A DNA stretch of 34,675 bases, taken from a virus. Positions 2,260 to 32,868 of this stretch are shown here, piece after piece (within the stretch, counting starts at the first letter, position 1; every line of letters starts with the position of its first letter). The stretch is from the IMG/VR virus record IMGVR_UViG_3300033153_004925, positions 1-34,675 of that record; one strand, given 5' to 3'. The translations under genes and the position numbers were made by a program. Below the pieces are notes generated by a model that had not been told where the DNA came from, did not search any database, and saw only the letters and a list, made by a program, of their open reading frames with translations.

Positions 2260-5211
2260 ATGGCAATTACGGATCGGATCTTAAACGGGCTTCGCTCGGT
2301 CTTCGGGCGCGAGCGGGACGAGAGGCAAGCGGCGGTATCACCATCGTCGGAGATACAACCGTTGGCGACACCGTCATCTTATTCTTCTTACGACGGGGGT
2401 GAGTATGGTGGCTTGCTGGCAGTATCTCAGAATTTGCTTGCGCGATATGCTGATTATGAGTGCATAACAGGGGATACTCAGGTTATGACGCTTGAAGGTT
2501 CTCGTTCCATCGAGTCTCTGGCGCAGGCTTGTGAGATTGACCCTGGTTATCGCTTCCCTGTCTATACTTGGGATCATACTGAAAAACGTATAACAGTAGG
2601 TCTTGGCGAAGCTGCCCGCTTTATAAAAGTTGCCGAAGTTTACCTCGTGCGATTGGACGACGGCCAGTCTTTTCGCGCAACAGGCAATCACCAATGGATG
2701 CTTCGTAATGGCGAATATGTGGACACGACGGCGCTGTCGCCAGGTACTTCGTTGATGCCTTTATACCTATCTAAATGTAGTCATAAATATGTTCAGTATA
2801 GAGAGAATGATGACTATCATAAAGGCGGTTTAACTCGGAAAGATAAGCAGCGTACAAGACCTGTTTCCCGTATGGTGGCAGAGTGGAAATTAGGGTGTAG
2901 AATTGCGCCTAAGACTTGGGTTACATTTATTGACGGTGATAGATCTAATTGCAACCCTGACAACCTTGAAATAACTACCGACAAGCAACCCGCCCGTAGT
3001 AAAAGCTGGGAGCCTTGGGTTAAAGCCATCATAAACGCCAAAGCTTTTATTAAAGAAAATAATAGGTTAGATAATAAAAATAGGCTTAATCATAAGGTTG
3101 TGTCAGTAGAAAAGGTAGGCAAGGAACCCGTATTTTGCCTAGAGGTGCCGGGAACGCATAACTACGCGGTCGGTAACGAGACTGGCGGTGTTTTCACGCA
3201 TAACTCGATGGATGACTACCCTGAGATTAATTGCTTTGCCGAAGGGTCTCTCGTTACTATCGTTAGAGATTCCATAATGACCGCCGTGCCTATAGAAAAT
3301 ATAGTTTCTGAGGGCATGGCTTTCACCACCATTGGCTATAACCGAAAAAGTCAAACGTTAGTTAGGGCGCAAGCGATAGACCCTCGACTATCAGGGAGAG
3401 ACGCAGAAGTTCTGGCACTAAAGTTATCAAATGGGCGCACTCTTCGAGTTACTCCAGATCATAAGATTTTAGTCTACGGAAAAGGTTACGTTGAGGTTAA
3501 AGACCTAGTAAAAGGTGCTTGTCTAGTAGGAATGAGCGCGGGTTATGATCCTCTAAAAACTTCAGCCTTTATCTCTCCAAATAGCGGTAAGGTTGTATTA
3601 CTAGAAGACCCAATACCTGATGGTAAATGTATGGTCTTCGACGTGACGACCAATACTCATAATTTGACTGTTGAGGGTGTAATCTGTCACAATTCGGCAA
3701 ACCATTACTTCGCTTCCGATTCGACTCAGCCAAATGCGGATACTGGAAGGGTTGTATGGGTAGAATCGAAGGACGAGGCGATAAAGGATGCTTCAGATAC
3801 GTTACTAAAACGACGCCTTCGTTTAGATGACGAAATGTTTTCGATGGCCTATACCCTCGTAAAGTATGGAAACGATTTTGAAGAAGTGCTGGTTACAGAT
3901 AATGGTGTGGTTGGGTTAAATTACCTTCCACCCGCTACTATGCGCCGAGTTGAGTTAGCGAACGGGTCTTTAGCTGGGTTCCTTCAGGATGTTACAGGCC
4001 AATTTTCAGACGATATGCCGACTCTTAGACAGAAACTAGCTCAACCGCAAACGATGCCCGATACGACAGCGTTATTTGAGGATTGGCAGGTTGTCCACAC
4101 GAGGCTTAGGACTCGCCATAGACGATCACCATACGGTTATGGGGTTGCTGATGGGGCTAGGTGGATCTGGAAGCGGTTGATTCTTCTTGAGGACGCGATG
4201 TTGATGTATAAGTTGACTCGCGCCCCGGCTAGATTTGCATTCTATATAGATGTGACAGATATACCAGCATCTAGGGTTGAGTCGTTCCTCCAACGCGCCA
4301 AACGAGACTTGAAGAAGAAGAAGTATATAGACCCCAATACGGGTCGCCTCAACATGCGCTACAACCCTCTTGCAAGCGATGAAGACTTCTTTCTTCCGGT
4401 GCGCGACGGTAAAGAGCTTGCGCGAGTTGATATCCTTTCCGGCCCCGATTATCAGGCTATCGATGACGTAAATTATTTCCAGCGGAAACTACATGGTGTA
4501 TTGAAGGTACCTAAATCCTGGCTCGGACAAGAGGAGGCAATACCCTCTCGTGCAATCCTCTCGAATGAGGATGTTAGGTCGGCACGAGTAACCCTTGGTA
4601 TTCAAAATGTCATGCGCCACGGTATTGAAAGGATTGTGAGAATAGATATGGCTGCTAGGGGGGTCTCAAACCCATGGCAACCAGAATTTGATGTCGTTAT
4701 GACTATGCCCTCTGGTATATGGTCTTTAGCTCATATGGAACTAAAAAACGCACTCGCTGACTACGCTTCAAGAATAGAGCCGTGGGTATCAAAGGATTTT
4801 ATTCGTAAGGATCTTCTTAAACTTTCTGATACTCAAATCGGGGTTATTGATAAACAAAAAGAACGCGAGAAAGAAATCGAAATGCAAGCCCAGGGCGGTG
4901 GTGGTGGCGGCTTCGGTGCCGACATCGAAATTCGTGGAAATGCTTTGACTGAGGAACAGGTCAATAGTTTAAGTAAACCTGAGTTGAGTAAGGTTAAAGG
5001 GGAGATTAAGAGGTTAGAGGATCGGCTAGATAGAAGGTCTCGTGGGATGGAGGATCGTATTATGGAGCGTTTTGATCAGGCGTTGCAAAAAGATCCTGAA
5101 TTTGCCAAGAGGCACCATGATCGATTGGCATTCTTTTCTTTACTGAACAATTCAATGAAGACAAACGGCACATCCCCTCCCGTGTCGAATTCGATACCCA
5201 TAAAAGGGTAG
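2260..5211 (+). CDS. Portal protein (T4 gp20-like) interrupted by two inteins
   Basis: The portal ring forms the head vertex through which DNA is packaged and to which the neck binds. The start is ATG 2260 with a GAGGAGG RBS. The 983-aa precursor has extein 1 (residues 1-67), intein 1 (68-315), a nine-residue extein (316-324), intein 2 (325-478) and extein 3 (479-983). Splicing would give a 581-aa portal, close to the usual size of this family. Joined exteins read RYADYE-SMDDYPEIN-SANHYFASD, the conserved tyrosine-rich portal segment. Further support is the region from VVWVES through LLKRRLRLD, the TRAPARFAFYIDV segment, the NYFQRKLHGVLKVPKSWLGQEE segment split over 4468-4536, and position directly before core, protease and capsid genes. 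The C-terminal region is glycine-rich then coiled-coil. The portal call is strong; the exact subfamily is inferred. Confidence 0.92.
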   Translation: MAITDRILNGLRSVFGRERDERQAAVSPSSEIQPLATPSSYSSYDGGEYGGLLAVSQNLLARYADYECITGDTQVMTLEGSRSIESLAQACEIDPGYRFPVYTWDHTEKRITVGLGEAARFIKVAEVYLVRLDDGQSFRATGNHQWMLRNGEYVDTTALSPGTSLMPLYLSKCSHKYVQYRENDDYHKGGLTRKDKQRTRPVSRMVAEWKLGCRIAPKTWVTFIDGDRSNCNPDNLEITTDKQPARSKSWEPWVKAIINAKAFIKENNRLDNKNRLNHKVVSVEKVGKEPVFCLEVPGTHNYAVGNETGGVFTHNSMDDYPEINCFAEGSLVTIVRDSIMTAVPIENIVSEGMAFTTIGYNRKSQTLVRAQAIDPRLSGRDAEVLALKLSNGRTLRVTPDHKILVYGKGYVEVKDLVKGACLVGMSAGYDPLKTSAFISPNSGKVVLLEDPIPDGKCMVFDVTTNTHNLTVEGVICHNSANHYFASDSTQPNADTGRVVWVESKDEAIKDASDTLLKRRLRLDDEMFSMAYTLVKYGNDFEEVLVTDNGVVGLNYLPPATMRRVELANGSLAGFLQDVTGQFSDDMPTLRQKLAQPQTMPDTTALFEDWQVVHTRLRTRHRRSPYGYGVADGARWIWKRLILLEDAMLMYKLTRAPARFAFYIDVTDIPASRVESFLQRAKRDLKKKKYIDPNTGRLNMRYNPLASDEDFFLPVRDGKELARVDILSGPDYQAIDDVNYFQRKLHGVLKVPKSWLGQEEAIPSRAILSNEDVRSARVTLGIQNVMRHGIERIVRIDMAARGVSNPWQPEFDVVMTMPSGIWSLAHMELKNALADYASRIEPWVSKDFIRKDLLKLSDTQIGVIDKQKEREKEIEMQAQGGGGGGFGADIEIRGNALTEEQVNSLSKPELSKVKGEIKRLEDRLDRRSRGMEDRIMERFDQALQKDPEFAKRHHDRLAFFSLLNNSMKTNGTSPPVSNSIPIKG
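2461..3204 (+). other. Intein 1 of the portal (248 aa) with a decayed HNH-type domain
   Basis: The intein begins with Cys68 (CITGDTQVMT) and ends with THN315 before Ser316, the hallmarks of a class 1 self-splicing intein. The splicing block B motif is TGNHQW, with the TxxH pattern, and blocks F/G read VFCLEVPGTHNYAVGN...VFTHN. Between them (roughly precursor residues 190-250) is a homing-endonuclease-like segment of the HNH_3 type: RMVAEWKLG then WVTFIDGDRSNCNPDNLEI. In that family the block before IDGD normally carries histidines (V-H-H-I-D-G-D); here it is V-T-F-I-D-G-D, so the catalytic histidine seems lost. The splicing parts look intact; homing is probably dead. Confidence 0.9.
3232..3693 (+). 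other. Intein 2 of the portal (154 aa mini-intein)
   Basis: It begins with Cys325 (CFAEGSLVTIV) and ends ICHN478 before Ser479. Block B is RVTPDHKIL (TxxH) and the C-terminal blocks are CMVFDVTTNTHNLTVEG and VICHN. At 154 residues it is near the minimum for a splicing-only mini-intein, with no room for an endonuclease. Its sequence differs clearly from intein 1, so it is not a duplication of its neighbour. It must splice only nine residues away from intein 1. Confidence 0.93.
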
Positions 5212-24834: not shown

Positions 24835-24863
24835 GAAAGAACCTGCTTCTTAATGGTGATGTG

Positions 24864-25867: not shown

Positions 25868-26058
25868 TGATTGATGATCAAGTAGGTAACAAAAGTATCT
25901 TCTCCGAAACAATGGAGTCACGCAAAGAAAAGCGTAAAGTACTTAGAGACTCTCGCCAACATTGCTTATCTCGATTGAACCGTTATAAATCCCAATCCTC
26001 TAATGGTGTTAATAAGGAAGACGCCAAACCAGAGGAAGAGGACCAACCATCCACTTAG
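25867..26058 (+). CDS. Small charged protein (63 aa)
   Basis: ATG 25867 overlaps the previous stop (TAATG), with GAGAGGAG upstream. The product is hydrophilic and charged (MESRKEKRKVLRDSRQHCLS, EDAKPEEEDQPST) with no domain recognised. Its last 50 bases overlap, tail to tail, the convergent gene on the other strand. It is the last plus-strand gene before the minus-strand island, so it may be a dispensable end-of-operon gene. Confidence 0.55.
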   Translation: MIDDQVGNKSIFSETMESRKEKRKVLRDSRQHCLSRLNRYKSQSSNGVNKEDAKPEEEDQPST

Positions 26059-26845
26059 CTCTCTCCTGCGTGGTCTTCCTAGTTCCTTTTGTCCGAGAAA
26101 TTGGTGTTGTTAGTTTTGGCAAATACTTGTTTACAACTTGTTGCCAGTTTTCTTCAAACCAGTTTTCAAAACCCTCGCGTAAGAAGTCACGCGCCTCCTG
26201 CTGAGTCTTTCGACTTGCATGTGTGGAAGACGTGAGATTGAAGTTCTGCTGTAGGGGATGCTCCCAACTATACAATTCTTTACTTATCCACTCCCAAACA
26301 TGACCCCACTTCACCCGATGAAAAACAGGGTAATGTAGACTACTGTTCATCAGGCCCAAATAAACAGCATGTAGAGGATGGTTTCTTAGTTTATTAATTA
26401 ACCAAACTTCTCGTATTGGGCTGTCTCGTTTTGGGAGATTGCACTCTTCAAACGAACACCTAAAAAGATTTCTATCGTGTGTACCATGTTGACGTAGCGT
26501 TATGCCGCCAACAAAGTCGGGGCGAATTGCCAAACGACTCTGCTCAAATACGTATCTTAGTATTTGGTGAGGGTCGTTAGTAGCCGACGCCCTGTTCCAA
26601 CCCTCCTGGTTGTATACGTTGTCCCACTTCTTCAACTTCTCTTGTCGCTTCTTATTCTCCTTCTTTTTTAACTCGTTTCTTTTCTTCTTTAACGAGTCTT
26701 TCTTTTTGATATCGGCAACGCAAACCCTCTCGACCATCTTCTTGTTCGAGCAAGGAAGGCAAAACTTCCTCGCATCGTTATCTGGTATCCGGTTTGGCGC
26801 TATAATCGTGTTCTTGCACTTTGGACAAGTCCACCTCTTCGCCAT
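26009..26845 (-). CDS. Zinc-ribbon protein of unknown function (278 aa)
   Basis: The start is ATG at 26845 with an AAGGAG RBS. Two CxxC pairs (C7/C10 in WTCPKC and C29/C32 in FCLPC) form an N-terminal zinc ribbon. It is followed by a lysine-rich coiled-coil stretch (KKKDSLKKKRNELKKKENKK) and a C-terminal domain with conserved-looking IREVWLINKLRNHPLHAVYL, YPVFHRVKWGHVWEWISKEL and SWEHPLQQNF. I do not recognise the family. A mobile endonuclease with a zinc-ribbon head is conceivable, given the antisense position inside the tail operon, but no HNH, GIY-YIG or LAGLIDADG motif is visible. It lies downstream of the ParB-like gene. Confidence 0.68.
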   Translation of the reverse strand: MAKRWTCPKCKNTIIAPNRIPDNDARKFCLPCSNKKMVERVCVADIKKKDSLKKKRNELKKKENKKRQEKLKKWDNVYNQEGWNRASATNDPHQILRYVFEQSRLAIRPDFVGGITLRQHGTHDRNLFRCSFEECNLPKRDSPIREVWLINKLRNHPLHAVYLGLMNSSLHYPVFHRVKWGHVWEWISKELYSWEHPLQQNFNLTSSTHASRKTQQEARDFLREGFENWFEENWQQVVNKYLPKLTTPISRTKGTRKTTQERAKWMVGPLPLVWRLPY

Positions 26846-26882
26846 AACAATCTCCTTGTGTTAAGTGTATACAAGCGGAAAG

Positions 26883-26912
26883 CCCCCGTCACCCATGCTG
26901 ACGAGGGATTCC
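26883..26912 (-). terminator. Hairpin between the ParB-like and zinc-ribbon genes
   Basis: On the minus strand CCCTCGTCA and TGACGGGGG pair (26883-26907 in plus coordinates, nine pairs with one G-U) and are followed by CTTTCC. The weak T run suggests an attenuator or processing site rather than a strong terminator. Confidence 0.45.
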
Positions 26913-26929
26913 TGAGCCGTGGCATGGCT

Positions 26930-27895
26930 TTATTTCTTGACCATACCTTGCCATGGTTTTTCTGAGTAAGTTTCGTCATACCACCTATGAAGACTGTCAA
27001 TTAATTCAATACGTAATAATGACGCCCCTTTGAAATCCTTCTGATTGTGACGACTACGAATGATAGAAATCTTTTTATTTGATAAAGAAGAAATGATCCC
27101 AGTAGTAGCGGCCAAATAACTTTTTCTTGACCATTTATTATTTAACGGGCTTGACTTTGCAGTACGCCCACCTTTGTTTCTGAGAAACCTAAACAAAGCT
27201 CTAAGAGGGTCTTTTTTGTCGTCCCATTCCAGGTTAGACAAACGATATACAAGCTGGTCTATCTCGTCTCTGCCATAAATCAAGGCTGCTGTAACGAATG
27301 CTGCTACCCAACCGCCTGAAAAAACTCCCCTGAAATCTGCTACGCTAAACGCCTTAACATAAGACGTCATTAATTCTTCGTTATCAATTATGAATTTAGC
27401 GACTTCAGGATCGCGAATTTGCATCTGGTAACCAGCAGCATGAGCGGCTTTAGGACCAAATAAAGTAAACCTTGATACAGTCACCAATTTATTGGCATAG
27501 CGGCCATGCGAATTACTGTCTAAGGTATAGACGTCTTTCGTAGTTCTCTTATTGGTGAGGTCAATAAAAGGCTGGTTTACACGCGGATTATTTCGCGTTA
27601 CCATCAACTCTTGAGGGATGCCCGATTTAACAATTGCAGTTAATCGATGCTGACCATCAATAAGGATATTGTCTTCGTTAAAGATAATACCTTGGGGTGT
27701 GAGATGCCATTTGTTGCTACTCATATCCTGAACCATATGAGAAATTGACGATTTTCTCAAAGCTCGATTTTTCCCCATTTTATCGAGTTCGTATTGTGCT
27801 AATTCAGGATCGAATATCTGTAAGCTAATAGTCCAAGGCCCAAGCAGGACAGGGCCGTTGTTTCTATAACGTCTGGGTTCTTTTTTCTTTCGCAT
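26930..27895 (-). CDS. ParB-like/DGQHR-domain protein (321 aa)
   Basis: The start is ATG at 27895 with AAGGAG upstream. Residues about 60-110 contain MSSNKWHLTPQGIIFNEDNI, then LIDGQHRLTAIVKSGIPQEL, the signature (liDGQHRltA) of ParB/Srx-like nuclease-fold domains found widely in phages and in DNA modification systems. It continues with NNPRVNQPFIDLTNKRTTKD. The remainder is helical and basic. Members bind or hydrolyse nucleotides or DNA in some studied cases, but the activity here is unknown. It heads the - strand pair with the zinc-ribbon gene and has its own leader region. Confidence 0.8.
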   Translation of the reverse strand: MRKKKEPRRYRNNGPVLLGPWTISLQIFDPELAQYELDKMGKNRALRKSSISHMVQDMSSNKWHLTPQGIIFNEDNILIDGQHRLTAIVKSGIPQELMVTRNNPRVNQPFIDLTNKRTTKDVYTLDSNSHGRYANKLVTVSRFTLFGPKAAHAAGYQMQIRDPEVAKFIIDNEELMTSYVKAFSVADFRGVFSGGWVAAFVTAALIYGRDEIDQLVYRLSNLEWDDKKDPLRALFRFLRNKGGRTAKSSPLNNKWSRKSYLAATTGIISSLSNKKISIIRSRHNQKDFKGASLLRIELIDSLHRWYDETYSEKPWQGMVKK

Positions 27896-28088
27896 TACAA
27901 TCTCCTTAAATAATGGTCTTCATAGCGTTATACCGCCACCGATCATAGAGCGGCGACGAAAAATAAAAAAGTTTTCTATGGTGAGGGGTGGGGCCGAAAA
28001 AATTTCAGCCCCGCCGAGCTTCGCGTCAACGATAATCGCTGTCGCGAGGCTTCAGCAGAGCTTTGACGGCGCGTAGGTCATACCCGCC
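27896..28088 (-). promoter_or_regulatory. Leader region of the ParB-like gene with a long hairpin
   Basis: This 193-bp gap has no supported gene. It contains a near-perfect 10-bp hairpin, GGGGCCGAAA/TTTCAGCCCC (27991-28013), with one G-U pair and a short loop. Between it and the gene, on the minus strand, TATGAT and GTATAACG are possible -10 sites. A short frame starting MTYAPSKLC resembles the start of the small gene at 30801 and may be a remnant. Confidence 0.4.
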
Positions 28089-28256
28089 TCAATCAAACGA
28101 TTTAGTCCAAGCGAAGAAAGTTTTTCGTGCTTCAGACTTAGAAAGTCCAAACTCCCGCTGTAACTCGCGAGGAGCGCCCATCATGTTCATTTCTCCGCTG
28201 TCTCTCAGTTCCTTTAAGAACCGAAAAATTTCTACTTGATCAACATCTTCATTCAT
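28089..28256 (-). CDS. Small conserved phage protein (55 aa)
   Basis: It starts at ATG 28256, overlapping the upstream stop by ATGA and preceded by GGAG. The 55-residue product MNEDVDQVEIFRFLKELRDS, then GEMNMMGAPRELQREFGLSK, SEARKTFFAWTKSF, belongs by pattern to a common tiny phage family (LRDSG-x-x-NM-x-GA, then EFGL-x-x-x-EAR, then W-x-x-SF). It looks like a helix-turn-helix-sized domain. The function is unknown. It is the last gene of the small-gene cluster. Confidence 0.75.
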   Translation of the reverse strand: MNEDVDQVEIFRFLKELRDSGEMNMMGAPRELQREFGLSKSEARKTFFAWTKSFD

Positions 28257-28450
28257 CTTAATCTCCTATAAACGTGATCCATTTCTGAATCATCCTCGCT
28301 ACCAACCTCAGGACAGCCCTGTGGGAACCAAAGCTCAATCCCTTCCCCTCCGCGCCATGTTGCGCTTGCTTGGAAAAAGGACCACCGACCCCCTCGGTTT
28401 TCGTCGATGATGTCCCAAGCTTCTCTTAATGTTAAATCCTCTAGTTTCAT
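28253..28450 (-). CDS. Small hypothetical protein (65 aa)
   Basis: The start is ATG 28450 with AGGAGAG upstream, following a hairpin-plus-box junction. The product MKLEDLTLREAWDIIDENRG...WFPQGCPEVGSEDDSEMDHV is acidic, with an N-terminal helix and several tryptophans. The family is not recognised. It overlaps the next gene by ATGA, so the two form the only coupled pair in this small-gene cluster. Confidence 0.68.
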   Translation of the reverse strand: MKLEDLTLREAWDIIDENRGGRWSFFQASATWRGGEGIELWFPQGCPEVGSEDDSEMDHVYRRLR

Positions 28451-28459
28451 TTTTCTCTC

Positions 28460-28624
28460 CTAATTTAATTGAACTAACATCGCTGAAAAGCCCCCTTTAC
28501 GGGGGTCTTTCCGCCGACAACGCATTTTACTGCGCTGCCGCTTTGATACGCTGCGATCCCAGGATTTACCCTTGCGGTGCCTGAGAGCGCCTGCGAGCTT
28601 TGCTTTCGCACGTTTCTTATCCAT
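28460..28624 (-). CDS. Very basic small protein whose end overlaps the terminator (54 aa)
   Basis: It starts at ATG 28624 with AAGAGGAG upstream. The product MDKKRAKAKLAGALRHRKGK, then SWDRSVSKRQRSKMRCRRKD, PRKGGFSAMLVQLN is over one third K/R. The last 15 codons are encoded by the terminator hairpin and the GATGTTA-type box of the junction, and the stop lies just before the next RBS. Either the natural end has been lost and the frame runs on through the junction, or the junction doubles as coding sequence. A nucleic-acid-binding role is likely from charge alone. Confidence 0.6.
   Translation of the reverse strand: MDKKRAKAKLAGALRHRKGKSWDRSVSKRQRSKMRCRRKDPRKGGFSAMLVQLN
28467..28507 (-). terminator. 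Hairpin terminator plus box
   Basis: On the minus strand a CCCCC-GTAAA-GGGGG hairpin (28491-28505) followed by CTTTTC is next to the box GATGTTAGTTCAATT (28481-28467), then AAATTAGGAGAG for the gene starting at 28450. Confidence 0.65.
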
Positions 28625-28655
28625 CTTAATCTCCTCTTGTGTAATAGTGAATCGT

Positions 28656-28757
28656 CAAGAGGCGGGGGAATCGAACCCCCATGACTCCTCTCTAGCGGTC
28701 TTCTCTGGTCAAAGCTGAAGCTACAGAGCATTTTCCGTTTCGAGATGTCTCCTCTCG
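28656..28757 (-). ncRNA. Structured RNA candidate with a tRNA T-arm-like hairpin
   Basis: This unit sits between a hairpin junction and the RBS of the gene at 28624 and has no convincing ORF. On the minus strand it holds a 5-bp hairpin CGAGA/TCTCG, a CTCTG/CAGAG stem, and a perfect T-arm-like hairpin GGGGGTTCGATTCCCCC (28680-28664) followed by GCCTCTT. The 5' CGAGAGG can pair with the 3' CCTCTTG, closing the unit like an acceptor stem. No canonical 7-base anticodon loop or normal D-arm could be drawn, so I do not call a tRNA. A decayed tRNA, a tRNA mimic or an unrelated regulatory RNA are the options. Confidence 0.3.
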
Positions 28758-28767
28758 CATCGGCTTA

Positions 28768-28783
28768 AAGCCCCGTAGGGCTT
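28768..28783 (-). terminator. Hairpin terminator (box lost)
   Basis: AAGCCC-TACG-GGGCTT on the minus strand, followed by TAAGCCGATG. The GATG is retained, but the TTAATTCAATT part is replaced by the start of the structured RNA candidate. Confidence 0.55.
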
Positions 28784-29088
28784 CAAGGGTCAACTAACCG
28801 ATCAACATAATTAGAATATTTGTGACTTGAATAATGATTTGTTTTACCCCCGAAACCGAAGGGGGGCAACTCCCCTTTGAGCAGTCTCAAAAGATCGTCA
28901 GCGGCCCTCACGCCGGGGTCACTGCGAGCGTGGCCCATGTTTATAAGACATACTATGTCATTCTCCAGAACCTCGATACGACGCTCCAGAACCTCAGAGC
29001 CAGTCGTATGCTTTGTGAAAGGCGTACCCCCTTCAAGGGTAGCCAACCATCCAGCCAACTCGCGAAAGTATTCCATATCTTTCCACAT
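28783..29088 (-). CDS. Small hypothetical protein (101 aa)
   Basis: The start is ATG 29088 with AGGAAA upstream; MEYF four codons later is an alternative. The product MWKDMEYFRELAGWLATLEG...EVLERRIEVLENDIVCLINM...AADDLLRLLKGELPPFGFGG is helical, with a likely coiled coil in the middle. No known family is recognised. It ends at the next hairpin. Confidence 0.62.
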   Translation of the reverse strand: MWKDMEYFRELAGWLATLEGGTPFTKHTTGSEVLERRIEVLENDIVCLINMGHARSDPGVRAADDLLRLLKGELPPFGFGGKTNHYSSHKYSNYVDRLVDP

Positions 29089-29108
29089 TTTTAATTTCCT
29101 CTTGTTTG

Positions 29109-29146
29109 AATTGAAGTAACATCGCGGAAAAGCCCCCGAAGGGGCT
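29109..29146 (-). terminator. Hairpin terminator plus box
   Basis: The minus strand reads AGCCCC-TTCG-GGGGCT (29146-29131), the same stem and tetraloop as at 775 on the plus strand, then TTTTCCGC and the box GATGTTACTTCAATT (29123-29109), then the RBS of the gene at 29088. Confidence 0.7.
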
Positions 29147-29158
29147 ATTCTCGATCTC

Positions 29159-29593
29159 TCAGCCCATGATTGAAAGGGCGTGTTGAGACCAGAAAGCTTT
29201 GCTGGTAGCTAACTTCTCTGGATCGTCTGCAATGGCAGGGTCTGTCGGCTCCTGGGGAGCGCAGGGACCGCCGTAGGCGGTGTACAAAACGCAAGCGTCA
29301 TCCCCGTTTGGGCCAGCAATGACCGTGACAGTTCGCGTGTCCCGCAGAGGCTGGTCGATAAGGCGGCTTTCGCCGTCCCGCTCCCCGCGCTTTGCATAAG
29401 TCACACAAGACTCGTCAACAGGCTCATCACCCGCCAGAGGGCCATAAAGAGCCGACTGCAACGGGCTAAAGCTTGACGGCAAATCGAAAGATTCAATGAA
29501 GAATCCTGACTTGTCTGCAAACTTGCCGAGCAGAAACTCAATATGAGCTTGGCTCAAACCGTGATCCAAATGACTTTCAGAAATGATTTTCAT
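29159..29593 (-). CDS. Conserved phage hypothetical protein (144 aa)
   Basis: The start is ATG 29593 with GAGGAT upstream. It begins MKIISESHLDHGLSQAHIEF and contains SRLIDQPLRDTRTVTVIAGP, CVLYTAYGGPCAPQEPTDPA and ends FWSQHALSIMG. The S-H-L-D-H-G-L start and the Y-T-A-Y-G-G-P-x-A-P-x-E-P block with closing F-W-x-x-H-A-L are a pattern I associate with a widespread phage and bacterial family of unknown function. It is a single globular domain by length. Confidence 0.75.
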   Translation of the reverse strand: MKIISESHLDHGLSQAHIEFLLGKFADKSGFFIESFDLPSSFSPLQSALYGPLAGDEPVDESCVTYAKRGERDGESRLIDQPLRDTRTVTVIAGPNGDDACVLYTAYGGPCAPQEPTDPAIADDPEKLATSKAFWSQHALSIMG

Positions 29594-29610
29594 AATATCC
29601 TCTTTAATTG

Positions 29611-29648
29611 AATTGAAGTAACATCGGCTTAAAGCCCCGTTGGGGCTT
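29611..29648 (-). terminator. Hairpin terminator plus box, coding for the end of the upstream gene
   Basis: The minus strand reads AAGCCCC-AAC-GGGGCTT (29648-29632), then the box GATGTTACTTCAATT (29625-29611). The stem encodes the last residues (QAPTGL) of the upstream 75-aa gene, whose TAA lies in the T run. Confidence 0.68.
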
Positions 29649-29856
29649 GCTTAAGACGCGCTTCCTCTTGTTTAGCGTCTTTAAGGATGCTTTCGCGATC
29701 CTCTTTATAGAGGCGGTGGCGGTTGTTGACATATTCGATATACACATTGGGGTATGTTCCACGAAATTCACCGCCGAAGTAAACCGAAGCAACCCAATGA
29801 GGTCCGTATCTGTCATCTTCGTGGCATTCAAGTCTAATTGACCATCGTTTAGCCAT
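29629..29856 (-). CDS. Small hypothetical protein (75 aa)
   Basis: I chose ATG 29856 (MAKRWSIRLECHEDDRYGPH), with GAGGAG upstream, over a GTG/ATG 13 codons earlier. The protein has WVASVYFGGEFRGTYPNVYI, which looks like a beta hairpin, and a C-terminal basic helix (YKEDRESILKDAKQEEARLK). It reads as a small alpha/beta fold. The family is unknown. Its 3' end is built from the terminator. Confidence 0.65.
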   Translation of the reverse strand: MAKRWSIRLECHEDDRYGPHWVASVYFGGEFRGTYPNVYIEYVNNRHRLYKEDRESILKDAKQEEARLKQAPTGL

Positions 29857-29891
29857 TATTTCTCCTCTCAAGACAGTGCGGGATTGCACTC

Positions 29892-29921
29892 TCACATCGC
29901 CTTAAAGCCCCGTTAGGGACT
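29892..29921 (-). terminator. Hairpin terminator with degenerate box
   Basis: The minus strand has AGTCCC-TAAC-GGGGCTTT with the upstream TAA stop in the loop, then GGCGATGTGAGAGTG, a diverged box. Confidence 0.5.
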
Positions 29922-30104
29922 CCGACGAGCGCGATCCATTGCAGCGACCATCTTTAAGACTTGATCGTCTGATCGGCGCGTGAACCGTTGCAGTTCATCG
30001 CTCGCCTTGAAGACCCTTGCACGACAAGGCGCACAGGGACATTCCCCAAGGTTTTTCTCGGCTTTTTGAAGAGCCGCCGAGAGGCTCTTTTTTGACTTTC
30101 TCAT
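29913..30104 (-). CDS. Small basic protein with CPCAPC motif (63 aa)
   Basis: The start is ATG 30104 with AGAGGAT upstream. The protein MRKSKKSLSAALQKAEKNLG, then ECPCAPCRARVFKASDEL, has a tight C-x-C-x-x-C cluster at residues 22-27, which could bind a metal alone or as a dimer. The C-terminus is basic (RFTRRSDDQVLKMVAAMDRA). The family is not recognised; a small accessory or DNA-binding protein is plausible. Confidence 0.65.
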   Translation of the reverse strand: MRKSKKSLSAALQKAEKNLGECPCAPCRARVFKASDELQRFTRRSDDQVLKMVAAMDRARRSP

Positions 30105-30134
30105 AATCCTCTTTGAAAAGTTGGCTTCAACTGA

Positions 30135-30151
30135 CCCTGTAACACACAGGG
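30135..30151. other. Inverted repeat CCCTGT-AACAC-ACAGGG
   Basis: A perfect 6-bp inverted repeat with a 5-base loop, extendable by CTG/CAG across one mismatch (30131-30155). It lies between the RBS of the gene at 30104 and the upstream hairpin junction, so it could be an operator or a 5'-leader hairpin. Confidence 0.5.
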
Positions 30152-30183
30152 CCAGCTAAAACAGAGTGAACATGGCATCGCCG

Positions 30184-30200
30184 AAAAGCCCCGTAGGGCT
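30184..30200 (-). terminator. Hairpin terminator downstream of the 37-aa gene
   Basis: The minus strand AGCCC-TACG-GGGCT (30200-30187) is followed by TTTTCGGCGATG. Its first bases overlap the TAG stop of the upstream gene. Confidence 0.6.
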
Positions 30201-30312
30201 ATTCTCTATGCATGTTGTTGTCGGGTTCTTTGGGACACCGCTCAAGTGCCTCGTCGCTGTCCACGACAAACTTGCGCTTGCAATAGCGGCATCGGAATGT
30301 CTCTTCTGACAT
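30199..30312 (-). CDS. Tiny CxxC protein (37 aa)
   Basis: It starts at ATG 30312 with AGGAAAT upstream and encodes MSEETFRCRYCKRKFVVDSD, then EALERCPKEPDNNMHRE. C8/C11 (RCRYC) and C26 form an incomplete zinc-finger pattern like the N-terminal half of a Com-type or rubredoxin-like knuckle. It lies between two hairpin junctions with a good RBS, which supports it as a real gene despite the short length. Confidence 0.55.
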   Translation of the reverse strand: MSEETFRCRYCKRKFVVDSDEALERCPKEPDNNMHRE

Positions 30313-30330
30313 TTTAATTTCCTTTTGTTG

Positions 30331-30366
30331 AATTGAATTACCATCGAACAAAAGCCCCGTAGGGCT
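30331..30366 (-). terminator. Hairpin terminator plus box
   Basis: The minus strand AGCCC-TACG-GGGCT (30366-30353), then TTTTGTTC and the box GATGGTAATTCAATT (30345-30331), one base different from the plus-strand consensus. The upstream TAG stop overlaps the stem. Confidence 0.65.
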
Positions 30367-30565
30367 AGTCTTCGGGGGGAAAAGCAGCGTCCCATTCCGC
30401 TGCCGTTATCCCTGTTTTGATGAATTCACGCTGCGAAGCAGTGAGCATGGGGAAAGCGTTTTGAAGCAGCGCCCCCGCCTTGTAAAAGGCTATATCTCCG
30501 CGTGTGACAGGGAGTTCCATCTCGTGAATTTTCCCAGTAATCATTGACGTTCGTTTGATAAGCAT
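30365..30565 (-). CDS. Conserved small phage protein (66 aa)
   Basis: The start is ATG 30565 with AGGAGG upstream. The sequence ITGKIHEMELPVTRGDIAFY, then AGALLQNAFPMLTASQREFI, KTGITAAEWDAAFPPED matches a very common small phage family (M-x-x-P-V-T, then LIQ-x-AFP-x-L-x-x-x-x-REF-x-x-TGIT-x-x-EWD). The function is unknown. The strong conservation of the C-terminal REF-TGIT-EWD block suggests a defined binding surface. The stop abuts the next hairpin. Confidence 0.8.
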   Translation of the reverse strand: MLIKRTSMITGKIHEMELPVTRGDIAFYKAGALLQNAFPMLTASQREFIKTGITAAEWDAAFPPED

Positions 30566-30583
30566 AACAGCCTCCTCTTGTTT

Positions 30584-30615
30584 GAATTACCATCGAACAA
30601 AAGCCCCGTAGGGCT
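30584..30615 (-). terminator. Hairpin terminator plus shortened box
   Basis: The minus strand AGCCC-TACG-GGGCT (30615-30602), then TTTTGTTC and GATGGTAATTC (30594-30584), followed by AAACAAGAGGAGG for the gene at 30565. The CAATT tail of the box is missing. Confidence 0.6.
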
Positions 30616-30670
30616 AAGTTCCAGCGAATCTGACACGTATGCTTCTTTTGTTTCGTCGTTTCTCGTCCAT
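30614..30670 (-). CDS. Possible 18-aa basic peptide
   Basis: ATG 30670 opens MDEKRRNKRSIRVRFAGT and stops at the hairpin. It is in a different frame from the 40-aa frame upstream. It may be the displaced end of one frameshifted gene (30614-30801) rather than a separate gene. RBS support is poor. Confidence 0.25.
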   Translation of the reverse strand: MDEKRRNKRSIRVRFAGT

Positions 30671-30678
30671 TGTCGGCT

Positions 30679-30801
30679 CTACAAAACTCTCAACCGGTAT
30701 CGAGATTTTGCTTTGCCGGATAGGTCGAAAACGAGATACGAGGAAACACGAAGCTTGCGCGTCCGATTCTCTGTCCACGTTCTTTTAGGGTCGTAGGTCA
30801 T
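30679..30801 (-). CDS. Small basic protein (40 aa), possibly truncated
   Basis: It starts at ATG 30801 with AGCCAGG immediately upstream, just downstream of a promoter-like direct repeat on the same strand. The product MTYDPKRTWTENRTRKLRVS, then SYLVFDLSGKAKSRYRLRVL is basic. It stops well before the next hairpin, leaving about 65 bp in which a different frame (ending VRFAGT) stays open. A frameshift may have shortened the protein. The family is unknown. Confidence 0.5.
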   Translation of the reverse strand: MTYDPKRTWTENRTRKLRVSSYLVFDLSGKAKSRYRLRVL

Positions 30802-30817
30802 CCCTGGCTAGTACTAG

Positions 30818-30880
30818 CTCTCATCTATATAGAGAGAAGTCGATGATGGACCTAAAAAAAGTTCTAAGTCCAATAAAAAC
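30818..30880 (-). promoter_or_regulatory. 63-bp direct repeat, copy 1 (putative promoter for minus-strand genes)
   Basis: About 58 of 63 bases match copy 2 at 31331-31393. Read on the minus strand it contains AACTTTTTTTAGGTCCATCA, then TCGACTTCTCTCTATATAGA and TGAGAG, with a TATATAGAT -10-like core inside a CTCTC/GAGAG inverted repeat. It lies 17 bp upstream of the gene at 30801, as expected for a phage-specific promoter. Confidence 0.55.
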
Positions 30881-30900
30881 AACCCTTTATAACATCGCCA

Positions 30901-30924
30901 AAAAGCCCCGATCAAAGGGCTTTT
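30901..30924. terminator. Symmetric terminator hairpin
   Basis: AAAAGCCC-CGATCAAA-GGGCTTTT is a perfect 8-bp stem with A/T tracts on both sides, so it could act in both directions. On the minus strand it closes the gene at 30912-31298, whose TGA lies in the loop, and is followed by the variant box GATGTTATAAAGGG. Confidence 0.7.
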
Positions 30925-31298
30925 GCTTCTTGGTACTCTCGCCGTTTCCTCGCCAACGCCTCGATGTTTCGTCGAACATCTTTCATGAAGCTGGCTCTGG
31001 ATTTGTTCGACACGTTGGTTTTTAGGCCGATATGTTTCGTGATTTCTTCGAGCGTATAATCACGACGACTGAGTCCATTTTCCTCCGTAAAAACGGAGAT
31101 GGGTTTTTGCCCGATCCCAATCGAAGCCATGAAGCTCCGCTCCCAAAATTCGTTAGCATTCTTTTGAGTGATTTCACCCAATGACACAGTCATAGTCCGA
31201 AAGACTAGACCTTCAGTTATTGGGTTAATTGACTGATCCTCTTGCCAGCAAACTTTTTCAAAATCAACAATATCTTTGAGATTCCAATTTAATGACAT
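30912..31298 (-). CDS. Conserved phage hypothetical protein (128 aa)
   Basis: I chose ATG 31298 (MSLNWNLKDIVDFEKVCW), with AAAAGGAG upstream, over a start 13 codons earlier. Blocks NPITEGLVFRTMTVSLGEIT, then QKNANEFWERSFMASIG, EEITKHIGLKTNVSNKSRAS match by pattern a small phage family (P-x-T-x-x-L-x-x-x-T, I-x-x-KN-x-x-E-F, then HIGL-x-TNVS) of unknown function. It is all-alpha by composition. It is the first gene of the minus-strand cluster and is transcribed from the 63-bp repeat copy 2. Confidence 0.75.
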   Translation of the reverse strand: MSLNWNLKDIVDFEKVCWQEDQSINPITEGLVFRTMTVSLGEITQKNANEFWERSFMASIGIGQKPISVFTEENGLSRRDYTLEEITKHIGLKTNVSNKSRASFMKDVRRNIEALARKRREYQEAKAL

Positions 31299-31330: not shown

Positions 31331-31393
31331 CTCTCATCTATATAAAGAGAAGTCGATGATGGACCTAAAAAAAGTTTTAAGTCTAATGAAAAT
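31331..31393 (-). promoter_or_regulatory. 63-bp direct repeat, copy 2 (putative promoter for minus-strand genes)
   Basis: Copy of 30818-30880 with five mismatches. On the minus strand TTTATATAGATGAGAG lies 33 bp upstream of ATG 31298, leaving room for a leader with the AAAAGGAG RBS. Conservation over 63 bp, well beyond the -10 core, suggests an extended early promoter. Confidence 0.55.
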
Positions 31394-31395
31394 AA

Positions 31396-31457
31396 GGGTT
31401 TAGGGTTTTGAGCTTTTTGGGTTTTTGGGGTATCCTTCTTTGGGTTTTTGGGGTTTG
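31396..31457 (+). other. G/T-rich tract with six G-runs
   Basis: GGGTTTAGGG, then TTTTTGGGTTTTTGGGG, ATCC and TTTGGGTTTTTGGGGTTT give six runs of three or four G in 62 bases on the plus strand, with the TTTGGGTTTTTGGGG unit duplicated. It could form a G-quadruplex in single-stranded DNA or RNA. It lies between the divergent promoters of the minus cluster and the RHH gene. Confidence 0.6.
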
Positions 31458-31481
31458 TATCATGGAATTTTTCGATGCTCT

Positions 31482-31498
31482 TGAGTCTGTTTGACTCA
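31482..31498. promoter_or_regulatory. Putative operator 1 (TGAGTC-N5-GACTCA)
   Basis: Perfect inverted repeat TGAGTC-TGTTT-GACTCA. With the second site it sits directly upstream of the ribbon-helix-helix gene at 31538, as expected for autoregulation. Confidence 0.65.
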
Positions 31499-31510
31499 TT
31501 CATGGTAACG

Positions 31511-31527
31511 TGAGTCTAGTAGACTCA
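31511..31527. promoter_or_regulatory. Putative operator 2 (TGAGTC-N5-GACTCA)
   Basis: Perfect palindrome TGAGTCTAGTAGACTCA, with the same arms and spacing as operator 1 and centred 29 bp from it. It overlaps or abuts the RBS (CAGGAG) of the downstream regulator, so binding could block both transcription and translation. Confidence 0.68.
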
Positions 31528-31537
31528 GGAGCAGTGC

Positions 31538-31978
31538 ATGGGGCCAAGGTCATTGGTGAGGTTAAATTTCCAGATCACGAAGACGGCGCAGGATCGTTTG
31601 GAGAAGTATTCCTGTCGGTCTGGGCGCAATGCTTCTGACGTTGTCCGGCAACTCGTGATGGAATACCTGGATGGTGAGCGACCTTTGCGGATGCATTTGT
31701 CTTCATTGAATGGACGCCGTTCAAACTGCATGTTGCCAAATACTGTTGTTGAAAAGTTGAGCGAGCGTGTCGAGGAGTCGGATTGTTATTCCACCAGGGG
31801 AGGGGTAATCAGTTTACTTTTACAGGACTTTTTGGCGCAGCAAGACGACGGCGCAGGTGCCTTCAAAGTGTTGAATAAACTACTTCAGGCTTGTGAGGAA
31901 AAGGATCGTGGCGGGGACGTTTTTTCCTATCACGAGGCTTTGTTAGAGGCGCGAAAACTTTTGCGCCAAGGAGAGTAA
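31538..31978 (+). CDS. Tandem ribbon-helix-helix regulator (146 aa)
   Basis: The start is ATG 31538 with AGGAG upstream. Residues about 6-45 (LVRLNFQITKTAQDRLEKYS, then GRNASDVVRQLVMEYL) form an RHH fold: a strand, a helix, and a helix starting NASDVVRQ. A second similar unit follows at about 60-100 (SNCMLPNTVVEKLSERVEES, GGVISLLLQDFLA). Two RHH units in one chain would form a pseudo-dimer suited to a short palindrome, and two TGAGTC-N5-GACTCA sites lie just upstream. It is therefore likely a repressor or activator controlling itself and perhaps the divergent minus-strand promoter. The C-terminal 45 residues are helical. The first RHH is clearer than the second. Confidence 0.75.
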   Translation: MGPRSLVRLNFQITKTAQDRLEKYSCRSGRNASDVVRQLVMEYLDGERPLRMHLSSLNGRRSNCMLPNTVVEKLSERVEESDCYSTRGGVISLLLQDFLAQQDDGAGAFKVLNKLLQACEEKDRGGDVFSYHEALLEARKLLRQGE

Positions 31979-31980
31979 AG

Positions 31981-32868
31981 ATGGCAGACGAAACCCAAGA
32001 AACCGAAGTTAAAACACCACCACCAAAGCGTGAGCCGACAATACACGACGACGTTCGAGTACCCGTGTTTGGTCACTCCACTCAAGACTTCAAACTCCCG
32101 TGCGGCTACGTGGATGAGGATGGTGAAGTTCATAATCACGTTACGCTTAAACAAATGACCGGCACCCACGAAGATATGATGGCGAACACGAAATTGGTCG
32201 TGACCGAGAGAATATCTAACATCCTGTCCTCTTGTTGCACCAGAATCGGCGATATAACAAACAAAGGAGTTATACGTGCGGCCATCGAAGATAAGGTAAA
32301 GGCACCCTGTTTATCTCTTACAGCGGCAGACAGACTCGCCATGCTTCTGTTCCTTCGGATTGTGTCAGTAGGCGAAGAGTATAGGTTTGATTGTCATTGT
32401 CCTTATTGCGATGGGGAAAATAAGGGTAAGTCGTTAGATCTATCAGGGCTTGACATTAAATACGTGGGCGACCCCACCAAACGACTCGCCGAGATAACGT
32501 TGCCTAAATCAAAGGTCAACGTGACTTTGAAGATCCTAACAGCGCGTGGTGAGACTAGGGTATCTAAACTGCGTCCAGACGCCGAAGACGCCCGAACACT
32601 AGCTATGCTTACCAGGATTGTTTCTCTCAATGGAAAAAAACTATCCAGAAATATAAAGGAAAACATATCCTTGTTGAGAGATATGCCCTATCAAGATCGG
32701 ACTTATATTCGGAAAGTATTCGATATTATGGAGGGTGCCGTAGATACTGATGTTGAGGTACAATGTACCTCTTGTTCTAAGTGGTTTAAGTTTTCACTTG
32801 ATTTAGGTCAAGTTTTTTTCTCACAGACAGAGAATACGGTGTCGCCAGACCAGATCAAATGGAAGTAA
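31981..32868 (+). CDS. Tail assembly chaperone / baseplate hub assembly protein (T4 gp26-like)
   Basis: The start is ATG 31981, three bases after the RHH stop, with AAGGAG upstream. The pattern TQDFKLPCGYVDEDGEVHNH, VTLKQMTGTHEDMMA, LTAADRLAMLLFLRIVSVGE and EYRFDCHCPYCDGENKG matches the gp26/T4_baseplate-type family. These proteins assist baseplate hub and tail assembly. Two cysteine pairs (CHCPYC, then CTSC in VQCTSCSKW) suggest zinc binding. Near the 3' end is a T_TTT_TTC slippery heptamer (32814-32820) leading to an open -1 frame that reaches 33086. Its place directly before the tape measure gene supports the chaperone role. Confidence 0.8.
   Translation: MADETQETEVKTPPPKREPTIHDDVRVPVFGHSTQDFKLPCGYVDEDGEVHNHVTLKQMTGTHEDMMANTKLVVTERISNILSSCCTRIGDITNKGVIRAAIEDKVKAPCLSLTAADRLAMLLFLRIVSVGEEYRFDCHCPYCDGENKGKSLDLSGLDIKYVGDPTKRLAEITLPKSKVNVTLKILTARGETRVSKLRPDAEDARTLAMLTRIVSLNGKKLSRNIKENISLLRDMPYQDRTYIRKVFDIMEGAVDTDVEVQCTSCSKWFKFSLDLGQVFFSQTENTVSPDQIKWK
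32814..32820 (+). other. Putative programmed -1 frameshift site (T TTT TTC)
   Basis: In the chaperone frame the codons are GTT TTT TTC TCA, so the heptamer fits X_XXY_YYZ exactly. The -1 frame is open from 32802 to the stop at 33086, and after slipping the product would read LTDREYGVARPDQMEVTG and continue into the downstream ORF. Tail chaperone genes before the tape measure commonly use such a shift. Confidence 0.65.

Follow-up and report, generated by a model that had tools for sequence, protein, structure and literature searches.

Introduction

In ribbon-helix-helix (RHH) proteins such as Arc and CopG, each RHH2 module recognizes a single subsite in the major groove, and the half-sites of Arc, Mnt and CopG lie about one turn apart. 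AvtR of Acidianus filamentous virus 6 is a viral monomer in which two RHH motifs and a linker form one chain. It acts as the repressor of its own gene, with imperfect inverted repeats as consensus sites (PMC5569661). In TraY of the F plasmid, a single polypeptide supplies the complete RHH dimer fold, and neighbouring sites are bound by several such chains (PMC12117103). At the RNA level, the T4 genes e, soc, 49 and I-TevI have a hairpin over the Shine-Dalgarno (PMC3014915, PMC2988022).

Here we analyzed IMGVR_UViG_3300033153_004925, an entire IMG/VR record of 34,675 bases (hereafter the window), which belongs to a tailed phage with genes for a T4-type capsid protein, contractile sheath, tube, hub and tape-measure-like protein. 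Sequence comparisons make it likely, in our judgment, that the product of the gene in front of the hub gene is a transcriptional autorepressor with tandem RHH units in a single chain, with putative negative feedback on the hub/tape-measure operon.

Three sister contigs (25.0, 46.1 and 52.6 kb) were compared with the window. The 25.0-kb contig is 99.7-99.9% identical to it across most of the overlap and, judged by that identity, is the same phage. The 46.1- and 52.6-kb contigs, which have promoter and terminator repeats and one sample in common with the window phage, probably come from a different region of this phage or of a close one. The portal gene of the window (2260-5211) has an HNH-endonuclease match and two long intein-looking stretches.

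Table 1. Coordinates of features at the RHH locus and of the promoter-like repeat family (window positions unless a contig is named).
Feature	Position	Strand	Basis or remark
Tandem ribbon-helix-helix regulator gene, 146 aa	31538-31978	+	ORF; RHH_1; homologues in five records
RHH unit 1, residues 7-46	31556-31675	+	strand VRLNFQI, R-L-N invariant
RHH unit 2, residues 59-102	31712-31843	+	strand RRSNCML
Helical tail, residues 104-145	31847-31972	+	alignment with relatives
P1, candidate upstream operator	31482-31498	none	exact match TGAGTC TGTTT GACTCA; core GAG-N9-CTC
P2, candidate downstream operator	31511-31527	none	exact match; core GAG-N9-CTC
58-bp inverted repeat / RNA hairpin enclosing P1 and P2	31476-31533	+	fold; arm comparison
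Shine-Dalgarno AGGAG of RHH gene	31526-31530	+	sequence; overlaps P2 end
Weak promoter candidate TTGAGT-N17-GGTAAC	31481-31509	+	sequence inspection; below scan threshold
Baseplate hub/chaperone gene, T4_baseplate family	31981-32868	+	Pfam PF12322 E 8.1e-10, PHROG 150 E 1.3e-8
Promoter-like element of divergent minus cluster, phage-wide repeat family	31331-31372	-	no palindrome
Promoter-like element, copies in window	30818-30859; 31331-31372	-	repeat family
Promoter-like element, copies in L140	2141-2182; 3839-3880; 3894-3935; 7429-7470	-	repeat family
Promoter-like element, copy in L141	175-216	+	repeat family

Two RHH units in one chain

The first unit of the protein falls just under the cut-off of the Pfam family RHH_1 (E 0.0022 with the whole protein, 0.0005 with the unit alone), aligns with Arc and CopG, and has R-x-N strand residues that are invariant in the alignment across lineages. 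The second unit gave no match in single-sequence searches. It aligns with unit 1 as an internal repeat (p 0.0016), however, and is homologous to unit 2 of the relatives described below; both units can be aligned between lineages. A unit-2 profile built from four sequences matched the profile of unit 1, Arc and CopG (hhalign 93.8%, E 1.7e-7) as well as the solved NikR (E 0.0012). Among the relatives, the homologue in G011 scores above the RHH_1 cut-off (E 3.3e-10), and the Arc-like PHROG 582 is matched with E 1.8e-5. Because the homologues share unit 2 and the unit-2 profile matches both unit 1/Arc/CopG and NikR, the assignment of two RHH units to one chain, already made in an earlier note on this DNA, is sound.

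The relatives' proteins likely bear a third RHH unit, which in G013 matches RHH_5 by itself (E 0.0076). The helical tail of the window protein, which on its own matched no family, is possibly a degenerate version of this third unit, better kept in the relatives. Single-sequence AlphaFold models were of low confidence (pLDDT 41 and 55), and fold searches came back empty.

Relatives keep the gene upstream of the hub gene

Searching with the RHH protein sequence recovered no relatives from viral_contigs, genome_contigs or phages, and from plasmids only weak CopG-family matches to unit 1 (E 0.8 and above). The capsid protein was taken as the entry point (24 contigs, 62-100% identity) and searched 14 of the corresponding records in full. 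Five of the 14 carried an RHH homologue (E 4e-8 to 3e-14; residues 3-113, which take in both units, are 28-34% identical): G011 and G012 (52 and 160 kb), G013 (102 kb), G017 (275 kb) and G018. Because G011/G012 and G013/G017 are near-identical pairs that are sister to each other, these records and the window amount to three independent lineages.

In the window 2 bp separate the RHH gene from the hub gene behind it, and the two are presumably co-transcribed. The RHH gene lies upstream of the hub gene in all five records, directly so in G011, G012 and G018; in G013 and G017 the hub gene lies about 1.5 kb beyond it, with an HNH-like insertion between. In both of the latter (L185, L186) the hub gene is apparently split after about 20 codons by this roughly 1.6-kb insertion, which carries an HNH-like endonuclease ORF and is possibly an intron or intein. 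A tube gene of the type found at window position 24861 precedes the RHH gene on the same strand in G011/G012 and G013/G017. Listeria LIS04, Streptococcus GXN1, Streptomyces BRock and LR756511 have the hub gene in common with these phages and yielded no RHH homologue, LR756511 giving just a weak match (E 0.07) elsewhere in its sequence. Near the hub gene of LR756511, a 595-kb phage, lies a DGQHR protein (L125, 14009-15268, +) similar to a ParB-like protein with a DGQHR motif in the minus-strand cluster of the window (26933-27895, -; PHROG 5931).

A pair of palindromes precedes the start codon

The earlier note had described two TGAGTC-N5-GACTCA sites, 29 bp centre to centre, ahead of the gene. 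Both proved to be exact matches, with centres at 31490 (P1) and 31519 (P2), and a scan for the motif found these two alone in the 34.7-kb record and no exact copy in any of the three sister contigs. The arms of P2 extend to 8 bp (TGAGTCTA (G) TAGACTCA), longer than first described, and its end overlaps the Shine-Dalgarno. A feature that had escaped the first reading is that P1 and P2 are enclosed in one 58-bp inverted repeat, whose 3' arm holds the Shine-Dalgarno. Single palindromes with 6-bp arms are common in the window (124), whereas P1 and P2 are its sole pair with identical arms (at least 6 bp) within 60 bp, and none of 200 first-order Markov simulations of the window produced such a pair. 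Across viral contigs the pattern is too common for inference; the one viral contig with a close pair, L122, contains an unrelated repeat array and was set aside. A promoter scan of the window returned nothing above threshold at the RHH locus, where the candidate found by inspection has its -35 inside P1 and its -10 between P1 and P2.

Two other readings of the palindromes were dropped. Four GANTC sites fall within 45 bp, but another cluster of four occupies 50 bp elsewhere and the motif is near its expected frequency, which argues against methylation control. Controller boxes of restriction-modification systems have their half-sites in the order opposite to that of P1 and P2.

In every one of the three lineages, two GAG-N8/9-CTC palindromes lie upstream of the start codon, at -55/-26 for the window, -37/-15 for G011 and G013, and -43/-27 for G018. 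The spacing thus drifts from 29 to 22 to 16 bp, and the flanking letters differ too: TGAGTC is not exact in G011 and G013, where the GAG-N9-CTC geometry is kept, and the spacer of G018 is N8 instead of N9. The N9 geometry was defined on the window and recovered in G011/G013, whereas N8 was allowed for G018 afterwards, so the G018 match weighs less. Shuffling gave p values of 0.0014-0.011 for each pair, to be read with the fact that about 1% of the 66-nt windows at the two GC-rich loci contain two such sites.

A comparison of G011 with G013 provided a footprint: a 29-bp block from -38 to -10 (TGAGGCAGAATGCCTCCTCAAGTGAGGAG) is unchanged, whereas identity is 44-70% in the adjoining non-coding DNA and 87% where the coding sequence begins. 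The downstream repeats of the relatives, at about -27 to -10, correspond to P2. The motif TGAGG-N7-CCTCA occurs once each in G011, G012 and G013, upstream of the RHH gene only, and three times in the 275-kb G017. In G018 a sigma70-like promoter (TTGCAA-N16-TATACT) overlaps the upstream palindrome; the promoter scan of G011 found none above threshold.

With gene, position and paired architecture conserved in three lineages, and with the footprint between sister branches, the autoregulation proposed in the earlier note is well supported as a putative activity of the tandem-RHH protein, and the palindromes are probably its binding sites.

A model for autorepression

In the model that we favor, units 1 and 2 would pack together into one RHH2 module, and its two-stranded ribbon, to judge by the conserved R-x-N residues, would read the GAG-containing half-site in the major groove. 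In each window palindrome GAG and CTC lie 12 bp apart. Because one module serves one subsite, this distance makes two chains per palindrome, one per half-site and about one DNA turn apart, the simpler fit. The earlier idea of a single-chain pseudo-dimer therefore stands as regards the tandem chain but probably not as regards one such chain per palindrome. Four chains on the paired palindromes, which cover the promoter/start region, could block RNA polymerase. Because the hub gene starts so close behind the RHH gene, repression would act on the RHH gene itself and, if the genes are co-transcribed, on the baseplate hub and the tape-measure-like protein behind it.

Competing explanations

The same DNA encodes an RNA hairpin that is predicted to conceal the Shine-Dalgarno. 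Translational control is thus a live rival to autorepression or perhaps a second layer of it, and the hairpin offers another reason for the palindromes to be conserved. According to this alternative the palindromes work mainly in RNA, with read-through transcripts left untranslated and internally started ones translated. The full leader is indeed predicted to fold as one hairpin (z -4.06; -37.9 kcal/mol for 100 nt). Of its 23 arm positions 22 are paired, three of them as G-U pairs that account for three of the four arm differences, and among the 58-nt folds of the window it ranks third in stability. The Shine-Dalgarno is paired in the full-length leader and predicted to be largely free when the transcript begins at or after 31482; its accessibility ranks second lowest among 39 starts tested. 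P2 of G011/G013 likewise covers the Shine-Dalgarno, and the T4 hairpin genes (PMC3014915, PMC2988022) provide a precedent. However, pairing of P1 with P2 is largely a consequence of their likeness, the long P1-P2 hairpin is not the predicted form in G011, G013 or G018, and it is the GAG-N8/9-CTC geometry that is common to all. Moreover, P2 of G018 ends before the Shine-Dalgarno, and further starts in the window are also predicted to be inaccessible. A T4-like TATAAATA is absent from the RHH locus, which has only the weak candidate promoter. On balance we regard a mainly RNA-based function as unlikely.

Another possibility is that the protein acts elsewhere, on host genes, other phage DNA or tail assembly, and that the palindromes serve a different factor. 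The invariable placement of the gene within the tail module is compatible with this, as is the presence of a helical C-terminus or third unit. Yet paired palindromes adjoin the RHH gene in all lineages and hardly occur elsewhere in their records, and the footprint is restricted to them, which leaves this explanation quite improbable.

The earlier note also suggested that the locus might be a direction switch; the RHH protein at P1 and P2 would then choose either the minus-strand cluster or the tail genes of the plus strand. The setting is as it described: minus-strand genes descend from 31298, plus-strand genes begin at 31538, and the RHH locus sits in the 240-bp gap between them. AvtR, besides repressing its own gene, regulates a neighbour (PMC5569661). 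In the relatives, however, the gene and its palindromes have tail genes of the same direction around them, and because in the window the minus-strand cluster (26009-31298) came between the tube gene and the RHH gene, the divergence point is probably a local event and not the ancestral setting. What also counts against a switch is that the minus cluster has a palindrome-free promoter-like element of its own, at least 110 bp from P1; palindromes are missing from all seven copies of this element in the window and sister contigs. We accordingly give the switch very little credence.

Chance, finally, would require functionless palindromes, for which the frequency of 6-bp arms in the window could be cited, but the lack of an identical pair in the simulations and the recurrence in relatives, with a footprint, leave it practically no probability.

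The promoter-like element itself, GACTTAnAAnTTTTTTTnGGTCCATCATCGnnTTCTCTTTATA, lies ahead of early-type genes; its conserved part upstream of TTTATA is unlike a sigma70 -35. Between the divergent promoters, at 31396-31461 (+), is a G-run tract (GGGTTTAGGG..GGGTTTTTGGGG) with an imperfect 23-nt tandem repeat; the window has two potential G-quadruplexes, of which this is one. The left end of the tract is part of the minus promoter module, which L140 has too; regulation by a G-quadruplex was considered and dropped. Within the minus cluster, the small genes at 28469-30911 are in many cases followed by a AAAGCCCC..GGGGCTTT-type stem, CGATG and a similar leader, a pattern that is a repeated terminator-leader cassette. 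There, GGGGGTTCGATTCCCCC and its flanks (28650-28700, -) resemble the T-arm and 3' end of a tRNA or tmRNA, without a full tRNA. Antisense to minus-strand genes, positions 27981-28067 (+) give a full-length match to the Rfam gyrA RNA (E 5e-7, under the gathering score).

Discussion

The timing of phage tail operons is usually ascribed to late promoters and assembly, not to an internally encoded repressor. If autorepression is correct, a conserved tandem-RHH gene with its own operators ahead of the hub gene would serve the tail proteins as a built-in thermostat. The three lineages, with their differing operators and strand residues, would then form a natural series for the co-evolution of RHH specificity and operator spacing. 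More tentatively, and with considerable doubt, we suggest that one clade of large uncultured tailed phages has an in-operon tail feedback repressor of two or three RHH units that holds hub/tape-measure output at a set level. Through an odd third unit two chains could associate, giving an array that reads DNA with several modules and fits paired operators of drifting spacing and constant GAG-N8/9-CTC core.

A tandem-RHH viral autoregulator is of a known kind, and the one proposed here would be a variant placed in a tail operon. The T4 hairpin genes resemble the window in that its leader hairpin is predicted to bury the Shine-Dalgarno (PMC3014915). Unlike them, the window forms its hairpin from two DNA palindromes beside the gene of a DNA-binding protein, and no late promoter was identified inside it. 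F TraY is a relaxosome protein at oriT, whereas no conjugation genes were seen in the window phage. With Arc and Mnt of phage P22 and with CopG the window protein has the RHH fold in common, but these are single-unit dimers serving immunity or plasmid copy control, and the window protein has its units fused in tandem and is encoded in a late structural operon. AvtR, to which no sequence link was found, likewise combines tandem RHH motifs in one viral chain, and the window protein would, like it, repress its own gene at inverted repeats. The difference is that AvtR comes from an archaeal filamentous virus, whereas the window gene belongs to the tail operon of a tailed phage whose relatives likely carry a third RHH unit.
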